From Cornus controversa (lineage: Eukaryota > Streptophyta > Magnoliopsida > Cornales > Cornaceae): a stretch of DNA of 64,000 bases. The notes below the pieces were generated by a model. That model was not told where the DNA came from. It saw nothing but the letters and a program-made list of their open reading frames with translations, and did not search any database. The position numbers were made by a program, and so were the translations under genes. Position 1 is the first letter of the stretch. Each line of letters starts with the position of its first letter. The stretch spans positions 13,169,975 through 13,233,974 of the forward strand of contig CM048846.1 in assembly GCA_026545225.1 (NCBI GenBank), read 5' to 3'. Below, one piece after another: positions 11,006 through 41,480 of this stretch.

Positions 11006-11337
11006 GAAAAATTATTAGGTCCTAGTCCACAGCATCACTTAACTTATTTGGTGGACTACACAAATCAGCTCATGACACTTTATTATAATGTCAGTCTTTT
11101 ATATTAGTTGACACATTCAGCACAGTAAAAACATTTAACGGAGAGAGATATTCGTTCTTTTATCTAAACAGACGTTAACAGAGAGAAATATATGTTCTCT
11201 CTTTCTAAACAGACGTGTTCTCACTCTCTAGTTTTATTTTTCCCGCTTTGTCTCTGAAAATTCTCTCTCATTAAACCATTCATCTTCTCAAAGAATATTT
11301 TTCTTCTAACTTAGCAATCTCCATTCATCCTGTAACA
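11006..11337 (+). repeat. MULE left terminal inverted repeat (uninterrupted)
   Basis: It matches the reverse complement of 41363-41480, then 29941-30029, then 17180-17256. Shared landmarks are GGTCCTAGTC, CTTTATTATAA, CAGTCTTTTATAT, CGGAGAGA, TCTCTAGTTT and TAGCAATC. It contains a local duplication of about 45 bp around 11139-11220 that the right TIR lacks. It serves as the empty-site control for both Harbinger insertions. Confidence 0.85.
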
Positions 11338-11754
11338 AATTCTTCACCCCAACACAACAAAAGGTTACTACTCTGTTTTTTTCTCTTCACCCATAAGTTT
11401 CTCAAGTACATTTCTTTCATCCTATTATCAAATGTGATTTGAGAGTGGGTGTGTAGATTAAAGTGTTTGTTTGATTGATATTTTTGAAATCATAGTTGTG
11501 ATTAAGACAAAGTCTAATTCTATCTAGAAATCCCTAATTTTCTTTTTTTAACTTCTTAATCTATATTTCTCCAAATCATTTCTTTAAAGTATAAGATTGC
11601 TAAGTTTATTTCTTAGCTTTTTATGAAACATATTTATGAAATTGATGTTTACACACATTAAATAGGAAAATAACTTAAGGAAACTATTAATAATATTATT
11701 GGTCTTTGTTTACTTGCAGCTGGTATCTAAGGCAGGGAGTAAACCAAAAGCATA

Positions 11755-14344
11755 ATGGCATCTAAAGGCACAATTATTTTACTTGAGTATCTATTTTTAT
11801 TTTTATTTTTATTTTTATTTTTATGTTGAATTAATTTATTGATTGTTGTGACATTACCAATATTTTTCTATTTGTTATTAAAATTGTAGATGTTGGAATT
11901 GATAACAATGAAAAAATCATTATTGATGACAATGATGATAGCATTTATGTTATACATCAGAGCGGCGATGATAAGCCAGAGCTAAAAGTTGGAATGTTGG
12001 TCTATAGGGAGGAAGAAGCTTACAATTTGTATAATAGTTATGTTATAAACAAAGGATTTAGTGTGCGAAAAGGAAAAGTTCGGCGGTATGAAGGCACAAG
12101 TGATTTGCGGTAACATATTTTTTTGTGTTCATGTGAAGGAGTTAAGGAAGCTAGTCCACCTTTTCAAGATAAAAAGTTTGAAAGAATACTAACTAGAACT
12201 AGTTGCAAAGCTCGTGATGTATTTAATGTGGAAAATGGTGTTTGGGAATTTCACTTCTGAACATAACCATACACTTGCAAAGTCCAAGCAAAGACACTTG
12301 TTGAGGTTAGGGAGAAAAATAACCAGTACTTGTGCAGCTGTCTTAAGTTCCATGTCCAAAGCCGGTATAAGAGCGACTAAGGCATACTCATACTTGTCTA
12401 AAGAAGTCGGTGGGGTAGGTTCAAATTGTTGGGTTCACAGAACGTGATTGCCACAACTTTCTGCAGTCTGAAAAATCAAAATCAATAGAAGCATGGGATG
12501 CTCAAAGTCTTATCAATTATTTCAAGTGTAAGCAATCAGAAAATCCAATGTTCTTTTACACAGTTCAAGTGGATGATCAAAATCGAATGTCGAATTTTTT
12601 TTGGAGAGATGGTTCCTCCAAATTGGATTATGAATGTTTTGGTGATGTCGTTATATTTCATACCACCTACCGCACAAATAAGTATAATATGATTTATGCT
12701 CCTTTTGTTGAAGTAAATCATCATTGGAAGAATGTATTATTCGGTTGTGTTTTTTTACTGAATGAAACCACAGCTTCTTTTGTGTGGTTGTTTGAAACAT
12801 TTTGGAGGCGATGGGAAATAAAGCTCCTAAAACAATTTTCACTGACCAAGATGGGGCAATGGCAACTGAGATACGTAAGGTGTTACCTAACACTCGATAA
12901 CGCCTATGTACATGACATATCTTGAAAAATGCAGCTCTTTCAAATCCAATGTTCAAGGAGAAGTTTACAAAGCTCTTTTATGGTTGTGAAACAGAGGAAG
13001 AGTTCGAGCCCATGTGGGGCAAGATAAATGAAGAACATGACATTGCAGAGAATAAATGGTTGAGTAAATTGTATGACCTTCATGAGAAATGGTACCCAAC
13101 TTTCAGTCGTGATACATTCTCGGCTAATATTAAATCAACACAAAGAAATGAGAGTACAGATAATATATTTCAACATACTGCTTGTAATACCATGACTCTT
13201 ACCGAATTTGTGCAGCATTACGATGAAAGTGCAAGCCGAATGCGTGAAATTGAATTGAATGATGATTTTTCATGTTCTAGAGGTAAACCTCACTTGGTAA
13301 TACCTAATAATGGTATTTTAATTCATGCAACTCAGATGTATACACATATCATATTTAGAATGTTTCAAGATGAATTCTTAAAAGCAGTAAATGAAGTGAT
13401 TGTTCGGGTTGATTCTGTTGGGACACTTCTCATTTACACTTTGAAAGTCATGGGTTGTCACAGAGAGCATATTGTAGAATTTCACTATGCTAATTTCACT
13501 GCTCAGTGTAGTTGTAAAATGTTTGAATCTTTGGGCTTCTTGTGTTGACATGGTTCAAGGGTATTGAACCTTAATGCCATCCAAAAGATTTCTAGTGAAA
13601 ATATATTGAAGAGGTGGACAAAAGGTGTAAAGGAAGGCATTATCATTGATAAGTATGGTGAGTCATTCAAGAATGCAACAACGTCATCAAAGACAATATT
13701 TTTGAACAAGCTTATGTGGAAGGCTTTTAATGTTATGAGTTTAAGTGCATATGATGAGGAGATAGTTGCACTTACGAATGAACATCTAGACCAAATCGTA
13801 CAAGAAGTTAGAAAGATAAAATCAAAGAATGTGATGGATAGTTGTGATGTTACCAATGGAGTACATGGCTCAACTGATGAGAAGCTGGTGTTGGATCCTC
13901 CACGTATGAGACCAAAAGGGGTAACATATGGTAGGCTTAAGGGCGCTTGGAGAACCAAAAAGAAAAAGGCAAAAAAAGGTGCAACAAAATTCCTAAGAGA
14001 AGAAGTTTCACTTGTCCCAGTTTTCTCTCAACAAATGGGCTCTAATCCACATACTCAGGTGCAATATAACACAAGGTGTATGTATAGTCATATAAAGATT
14101 ATCCTATAACCATTATTTATTGATTAAGTTTGTTACAATTATTCATACAAGTTTTTGGACATCATTATAATCCTTTTGTAAGTTTTCAACAAATACAGTC
14201 CTTTTTGCCAAATTGGAGTCAGGTAATATTTTAAGTGGTGCCCAGCTTGAATTTTCCACATACATTATTATTATGTGTTTGTAGGTATCATATAACAATG
14301 TTATATCTGCTGAAACAAACCAAAAAATTTTGAACTTTAATCAG
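11755..14344 (+). pseudogene. FAR1/MULE-type transposase, multiply broken
   Basis: The order of domains is intact. A FAR1 DNA-binding region (EEEAYNLYNSYVINKGFSVR, about 11960-12290, with the EHNH end) is followed by the MULE transposase domain (GDVVIFHTTYRTNKYN, then FTDQDGAMAT) and a SWIM zinc-finger region (CSCKMFESLG, about 13505). Lesions include TAA at 12111-12113, shifts near 12255, 12425 and 12801, stops near 12897 and 12915, and TGA at 13546-13548. The first catalytic Asp of the usual DTTYRTNKY motif is His here (CAT at 12659-12661). Short downstream exons may lie at about 14180-14221 and 14284-14344. It cannot mobilise the element by itself. Confidence 0.85.
11791..11823 (+). repeat. 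(TTTTTA)n-like simple repeat
   Basis: Four to five hexanucleotide copies lie in what is probably the first intron of the MULE transposase. Confidence 0.8.
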
Positions 14345-14469
14345 GTATGAATTCTTCACTTTCATTTTTAGACATGAATAAATGTTTAAATTGTCCTCCA
14401 TATTCTAACTGTTATGTTTTTTTAATTGTTTTCTGTTTAGGATATTGCAAAATGAGACAGCTGAAAACA

Positions 14470-14775
14470 GTGAAAATTCCTAAAAACTATTATGTTTTTT
14501 TAATTCTGTTCCTTTTGGTCTATCTGATGAAAATGCAGTTAATTATCTTGTTTAATGCTTTTGTTAAACAGTGGAAATTTCTAAAAACTGTTATATATAT
14601 TTTTTAATTATGTTCCTTTTGGTCTATCTGATGAAAAAGAGTATCTTTTGCTATTAGTTATCTTGCTCAATGCTTATGTAAAACAGTGGGAATTCCTAAA
14701 AACTGTTATGTTTTTTTAATTATGTTCCTTTTGGTCTATCTGATGAAAAAGAGTATCTTTTGAAGATACTTATCT
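14470..14775 (+). repeat. Diverged tandem repeat in MULE interior
   Basis: Units containing CCTAAAAACT, GTTATG, GTTCCTTTTGGTCTATCTG and ATGAAAAAGAG recur about three to four times. No coding role is apparent. Confidence 0.7.
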
Positions 14776-15019
14776 TGTTTAATGCTTCTGTAAGGTTCCT
14801 ACATGCTGCCTAATGGTCATTCTTTTGTCATCTAATGCTATGGGTTTTATTTGCTATCTTTGTAAAGAGTGTAAATGGTTCTTAGATTCATAAACTTTCT
14901 TTCTTATTAATACAAATTATAGTTACCCATGCCTGAAATAAAGTTGTTGTCTGTGCTTTTGATGAGCTGCTGAGAGTCCTTGCTTTGTTATTTTTGCTTT
15001 AAATTTCTAGTTTTTGAAA

Positions 15020-15220
15020 GTGTTTTTTTCTTCTTTATGTTTCTCAGTTGAGTGAATAAATAAGTTATATTGTGTCTGCTTGTGTTGTTTCCTGAAGGTA
15101 GATTTAAAATTTTTGTTTTTCGAACGTTTCTTTTTCTTCTTTATGTTTCTCAGTTGAGTGAGTGAATAGGTTGTATTGTGTTTGCTTGTATTGTTTCTTG
15201 AAGGTGTGTATTAAATTTCT
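15020..15220 (+). repeat. Tandem duplication of about 105 bp in MULE interior
   Basis: The block with TCTTCTTTATGTTTCTCAG, TTGAGTGA and TTGTGT(C/T)TGCTTGT occurs at about 15025-15115 and again at about 15130-15215. Confidence 0.7.
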
Positions 15221-40640: not shown

Positions 40641-40644
40641 GAGC

Positions 40645-41000
40645 CTGGTCTACTTCAAAAATTTGAGTCTCAAATACCTCGATTTGTCCTCCTTCAACAC
40701 AAAAATTTTATTTTCAGAATGAAATTATAGATAGTCGAACACGAAAAAATGAAATCGAATAGCGATGAGAGAGAAAGGAGAGAGAACATAACCTTTTTCC
40801 AAGATTTGCGTCTGAAACGCCTCGATTGGTCGTCCTTCAACACAAAACTACAAAATCGCCTTCAAAATCAATTTCAAAGAGAGTCGAACATAGAAGTGAA
40901 GCCGAATAGAGATGAGCAACACTCAAAAATAGAACATATTTTCAAGATTTGCGTCTCAAGAATGCCTCGATCAATCGTTTTCTAACACAAAACTTGGATT
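40645..41000 (-). repeat. About 135-bp tandem repeat in element B leader
   Basis: Units with ATTTGCGTCT, GCCTCGAT, CAACACAAAA and GAGTCGAACA recur about three times. Element A has an unrelated-looking tandem duplication in the equivalent leader. Confidence 0.75.
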
Positions 41001-41169
41001 TTCCATAGTCGCCTTGAGAGTCGCCTTCAGATCGCCTTCAATATTGCCACATAGGAGACAGAAAGGAACGGCAGCAAAACCCTAAAAACATCGATATATA
41101 CCTGTGTTGAGATTGGGCCATTTGCTTCCTCCGCTACAGTGTTTGGGCCAATTTTATTTCAGCTGATTC

Positions 41170-41182
41170 TAGCGCTACAGTA
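41170..41182 (-). promoter_or_regulatory. Subterminal TACTGTAGCGCTA motif, element B
   Basis: It is identical to 17451-17463 of element A and in the same orientation relative to the element end. A further TACTGTAGCAGG lies near 41302. Confidence 0.45.
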
Positions 41183-41362
41183 ACGAAACACCCAAAAACA
41201 CCATTTTGGTGTTTTGGGTTTGGGCCTCTTTTATCAAAATGTTATAGTATTGTGTAAAACATAACAGGCCTCTACCAAACATGTTTTGGGCCTCAATTTG
41301 GGTACTGTAGCAGGCCTGCAACATAAACACCCAAAACAAAACATATACCAAACACCCCCTAA

Positions 41363-41480
41363 ATTTTTTTACTTGATTATGCTGATTTGTTAACTAGATA
41401 TAAAAGACTGACGTTATAATAAAGTGTAGTCTACCAAATAAATTAAGTGATCTGATAGACTAGGACCATTCAATAATTTC
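41363..41480 (-). repeat. MULE right TIR, outer piece
   Basis: Its reverse complement aligns with 11006-about 11138 (GGTCCTAGTC, CTTTATTATAA, CAGTCTTTTATAT, GTAAAAA.ATTTA). It abuts the TAA duplication of element B. Confidence 0.85.

Follow-up and report, generated by a model that had tools for sequence, protein, structure and literature searches.

How does it come about that one long terminal inverted repeat (TIR) of a DNA transposon lies in a single stretch and its partner in three separated pieces? The question is raised by a window of 64,000 nucleotides of Cornus controversa (C2:13169975-13233974, in an assembly of 771.7 Mb and 61 contigs), and positions given below without a contig are counted from the first letter of this window. 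The window holds a Mutator-like element (MULE) at 11006-41482, whose left TIR (11006-11345, forward strand) is continuous. Its right TIR is present on the reverse strand as an inner piece (17180-17259, which includes one TTA copy at 17257-17259), a middle piece of 89 bp (29941-30029) and an outer piece which carries the right end of the element (41363-41482). Two PIF/Harbinger elements, here named A (17260-29937, forward strand, 12,678 bp) and B (30033-41359, reverse strand, 11,327 bp), occupy the gaps on either side of the middle piece. Two separate Harbinger insertions into the right TIR of an older MULE are the best explanation of this arrangement, and we regard it as almost certainly correct.

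The identity of the three pieces was established by self-BLAST, by alignment and by comparison with relatives. Self-BLAST of the window matched 11009-11137 with 41479-41360 (72.7%, E 6e-13) and 11166-11274 with 30041-29938 (79.3%, E 1e-14), and gave no match for the inner piece at E<=1e-3. Local alignment of the inner piece with the left TIR reached a score of 52, against a maximum of 32 among 4,876 random stretches of the window; the outer and middle pieces scored 114 and 95, and the maximum was again 32 among 4,882 and 4,889 random stretches respectively. The initial annotation had read the pieces as three blocks collinear with the left TIR, and this was borne out when A and B were removed in silico and the right TIR was joined with one copy of the duplication kept at each junction. 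The joined sequence scored 219 against the left TIR, which was the best of 48 orders and orientations of the pieces (the next reached 170) and far above the maximum of 40 in 1,928 random stretches. In a multiple alignment, for which the pieces had been joined without TAA (3 bp) at the junction of A, the joined right TIR agreed with the left TIR in 211 of 275 aligned bases and with the right TIR of a sister MULE on contig C1 in 233 of 287.

The borders of both insertions are equally clear. A is flanked by TTA at 17257-17259 and at 29938-29940 and B by TAA at 30030-30032 and at 41360-41362, so that both target site duplications are perfect and lie exactly where the initial annotation had placed them. 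Its right end of the MULE at 41480 was moved by 2 bp, as the comparison with relatives, which end in GAGAAATTATT, sets the terminus at 41482. With A and B in place the element measures 30,477 bp and without them 6,463 bp, in agreement with the proposed growth from 6.5 to 30 kb.

Both targets are unfilled in the left TIR of the same element and in three other right ends. The use of the left TIR as a record of the empty sites, as proposed earlier, is sound in so far as both target positions are unfilled there; as a copy of the former right TIR it is imperfect, since it differs from it by about 23% and has a 40-bp tandem duplication of its own (11135-11216) which begins at the B target. When the genome was searched with the left TIR, 18 matches were obtained, 2 inside and 16 outside the window. 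Of these 16, 11 were fetched and compared, among them both ends of the sister MULE. Relatives of the MULE without A or B, for which the initial annotation had advised to look, were found among them: the right ends L011 (C1:44157 kb), L012 (C1:102724 kb) and L013 (C6:46354 kb) are readable across both targets, and in all three the three pieces follow one another with at most two bases of offset at the joins and with neither A nor B between them. In a further right end, L015, the outer and inner parts are about 200 bp apart and the middle piece is unrecognisable; nothing as large as A or B is inserted there, and the exact targets are not readable. The rest of the fetched matches represent left ends or incomplete TIRs or, like L017 and L020, cover too little of the TIR to be judged.

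The history of the nest would then be as follows. A MULE of about 6.5 kb would have been inserted here long ago, and two PIF/Harbinger elements of different subfamilies would later have moved into it by cut-and-paste in opposite orientations, each entering a TWA trinucleotide in the right TIR, 89 bp apart, and duplicating TTA and TAA. The separate arrival of A and B, both after the MULE, is well supported. The main blocks of the MULE body (11346-17179, forward strand) are 87-96% identical to the sister MULE, whereas the relative of A reaches 98.8-99.3% and the relatives of B reach 98.1% over 5 kb and 99% over a chimera of captured gene fragments of 1.75 kb, which fits younger A and B.

Some points weigh against this history. 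MULE target duplications are usually of 9 bp, and the flanks of the present copy, compared by eye, agree in 1 of 9 bases with the right end at 41482 or in 5 of 9 with the end at 41480; there is thus no convincing 9-bp duplication, and the insertion of the MULE itself at this site is not proved. The C9 relative of B is only 79-93% identical in its other blocks, and identity between copies limits the times of insertion only loosely. As for the assembly itself, a misjoin would hardly be expected to leave the two sides of A, and likewise those of B, with the same duplication.

Had A and B come together, as a single compound element that carried the 89-bp piece along, this would account for their closeness and for their homologous ends, and neighbouring PIF-type insertions have been modelled as one unit in a published study (PMC8903248). 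In that study the neighbouring PIF pairs of maize have the same orientation in 12 of 13 cases. A and B belong to different subfamilies, and their opposite orientation is a slight argument against their having arisen as a local pair. Each of the two has its own perfect duplication, relatives of A and of B are found singly elsewhere, and the 89 bp belong at exactly that place of the right TIR in three relatives, where a compound element would not bring a fitting piece of MULE. The separate duplications together with the empty sites lead us to reject the joint arrival, whose probability we consider negligible. A different course, in which A and B entered a MULE copy elsewhere and a later transposition or segmental duplication brought the whole 30 kb to this site, would agree with the lack of a clear MULE target duplication at this site and with the age of the MULE. 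It appears very improbable, as neither A nor B lies in a MULE TIR among the 11 fetched of the 16 outside matches, a comparison in which A and B were aligned directly with the sister only.

Separate insertion could also be combined with a preference, the MULE TIR being a favoured Harbinger target in this plant; this is compatible with the best explanation. Two insertions in one TIR would suggest it, as would the surroundings of the targets. One side of both targets in the window reads CAC-TAA or CGC-TAA, near to a half-site of the maize PIF target motif, CWCTTAGWG, and the base directly before TWA is a C in 12 of 23 copies with a fitting end (among 40 scanned loci, 23 have an end fitting a simple pattern which itself requires T[AT]A). 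The right ends L011, L012 and L013 nevertheless carry neither insertion, the sister MULE contains no match to A or B, and a single locus chosen after the fact is no test of the suggestion; we hold such a preference to be unlikely.

The assignment of the outer element to the MULEs, made in the initial annotation together with that of the two Harbingers, agrees with its protein matches and with its ends. A piece of the MULE transposase domain is present at 12419-12925 on the forward strand (PF10551, 42.7 bits against a cut-off of 27.6), followed on the same strand by a piece with a weak match to the SWIM zinc finger (12916-13548; 18.5 bits, under the cut-off of 19.6), and the TIRs are longer than 300 bp. 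The coding region is distributed across several frames. Where the right TIR borders on the MULE body there is a 100-bp tandem duplication (16991-17186), which the relatives L011 and L012 do not have. The sister MULE (C1:44135337-44157108) is 21.8 kb long and is itself enlarged by other insertions, one block of which is bordered by 1.4-kb direct repeats of 90% identity; its flanks ATAAGAGCG/ATTAGAGAG agree in 7 of 9 bases by eye. The present copy shares with known MULEs the transposase domain and the long TIRs, and a near-match of 9 bp flanks its sister; it differs in having TIRs about 23% apart and a transposase region spread over several frames.

Element A contains a piece of a Myb/SANT-like DNA-binding protein (21097-21573, forward strand, PF12776, E 3.9e-18) and transposase pieces (23153-23968, forward strand, PF13359 DDE_Tnp_4, E 2.1e-8 and 6.3e-13). 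Both domains lie above the cut-off, and the TWA duplication is present in the window and at C9:48007061, in line with a PIF/Harbinger element. The break in the transposase of A is at the same place as in B and is, judged by eye, probably an intron. A search with a piece of this transposase against plasmids gave no match. The genome search with the left end of A gave at least 27 matches, the window's own included. A 5.3-kb relative at C9:48007061 has ends which match A (99.3% over 3,045 columns and 98.8% over 2,238 columns) and TAA/TAA flanks, and the middle of A is missing from it. In L041, a 5.3-kb internal-deletion relative of A, the two BLAST blocks overlap by 9 columns (~3195-3203) with mismatches, so that no exact repeat at the break is evident. 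Four other copies (L026-L029) have some 6 bp in place of a 1.5-kb stretch of A (~18572-20104); this stretch was considered as a nested element and rejected, as there is no clean insertion signature.

Element B has its transposase pieces at 34985-35991 (reverse strand, PF13359 DDE_Tnp_4, E 8.4e-14 and 8.7e-9) and its Myb/SANT-like piece at 37142-37612 (reverse strand, PF12776, E 1e-15), again above the cut-offs. It also has the TWA duplication and short TIRs; its end repeats are of 37 nt and 81% complementary, with the duplication counted in. The genome search with its end gave at least 41 matches, the window's own included. A relative on C2, from 10664465, has ends about 11.1 kb apart with TTA/TTA flanks, as judged from its ends and from a match over the captured chimera, and a relative on C9 (~56153.7-56165.5 kb) has TAA/TAA flanks and is 98.1% identical over 34832-39883. 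The cores of A and B are 64% identical and lie in opposite orientation, with homologous ends in mirrored order. Tandem arrays occupy matching places in the two elements, downstream of the transposase, with 173-bp units in B (33506-34064) and 149-bp units in A (24790-25111).

B has further captured fragments of two host genes. A carboxylesterase-type fragment (30903-32119, reverse strand; Abhydrolase_3, E 1.7e-10, with 17 sequences of the PDB at E<=1e-3, the best at 1.3e-7) shows 93.1% identity over 1,255 columns with C2:12668635-12669888, the donor locus about 0.5 Mb from B on the same chromosome, whose last exon remains open as far as its end, unlike the broken counterpart in B. A cullin fragment (32152-32863, reverse strand; PF00888, E 6.4e-16) starts 32 bp beyond it and matches C7:54973300-54975184 in two blocks of 94.1% and 95.7%. 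This fragment may extend past 32863, where the compared donor stretch ends, and its counterpart on C7 is perhaps a pseudogene too. A stretch of 1,172 bp of that locus, which lies between two copies of GTTATT, is missing in B. A spliced copy was considered and rejected, since the gap lies between these 6-bp repeats and intron-like stretches remain, and an internal deletion fits better. The chimera is found in the C2 relative of B over the whole 1,751-bp query at 99% (C2:10665383-10667132), so that B has moved since the capture, and it is absent from the C9 copy. Other places similar to the chimera are C6:64956-64958 kb and C7:4366 kb.

Nested insertions of transposable elements are standard in plant genomes, and the present case is ordinary nested transposition of a known kind with an unusually readable history. 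It shares with other nests the splitting of one element by another, the target duplications and the recoverable empty sites, and the sister MULE has been enlarged likewise. It differs in that two insertions lie in one TIR and the other TIR serves as an internal record; the mechanism is no different. Gene capture by PIF elements has already been published for grapevine (PMC2528002) and for the Pack-PIFs of maize (PMC8903248). The grapevine Pifvine families have a PIF transposase with a second open reading frame, TAA/TTA duplications and transduplicated gene parts common to several copies, and the elements of the window share the transposase with its second frame, the duplications and the long copies with shared gene parts; the extra sequence of Pifvine-3 is up to 3.5 kb, against full lengths of 12.7 kb for A and 11.3 kb for B (PMC2528002). 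As in Pack-PIF and Pack-TYPE elements, host gene fragments (carboxylesterase and cullin) lie between the PIF ends of B, and neighbouring insertions of the same type are described as raw material for larger units (PMC8903248). Pack-TYPE elements are non-autonomous in that account, whereas B retains transposase and Myb-like coding pieces, and because of its own DDE_Tnp_4 pieces B is not filed here as a Pack-PIF.

The nest is a clean example that documents itself and could serve in teaching and in tests of annotation software, since a single element shows the filled and the empty forms, with confirmation from three relatives. A program which pairs TIRs would probably miss the MULE or misjudge its size. 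The two-gene chimera of B adds modestly to what is on record about gene shuffling mediated by PIF elements. The 24-kb block between the outer Harbinger ends (17260 and 41359) contains two transposase genes, the captured parts of the carboxylesterase and cullin genes, and some of the MULE TIR. These ends could mobilise the block, and a MULE enzyme from elsewhere could move all 30 kb, the coding region of this copy being spread over several frames, so that its later movement would probably need such an enzyme; no sign of either movement was seen, and a mobile nest of two levels of this kind is improbable.

In the genome search for DDE_Tnp_4, 150 of 1,023 first-look candidates were scored and yielded at least 152 matches, and such loci are thus plentiful. 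Among the matches listed, 13 lie within 3 Mb at C2:51.1-54.1 Mb; they share the minus strand, have open frames of 229-407 aa and are perhaps a tandemly multiplied gene family derived from transposase. No Rfam family matched in the window at gathering thresholds, and in the open-access literature nothing on this locus was found, the locus having no name to search by, and a search there for the PIF target motif gave no relevant paper. Outside the nest the sequence content of the window is plant-like, with pentatricopeptide (PPR) repeats at 3685-4494 and, at 57105-57851, the end of an open frame with a weak match to the Development and cell death domain (PF10539, 18.3 bits against a cut-off of 27.8). 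A long terminal repeat (LTR) retrotransposon at 41755-46083 begins 272 bp past the right end of the MULE; it has direct repeats of about 370 bp which are 97.8% identical and TG...CA ends, and TATAT was read by eye on both sides of it in AT-rich DNA.

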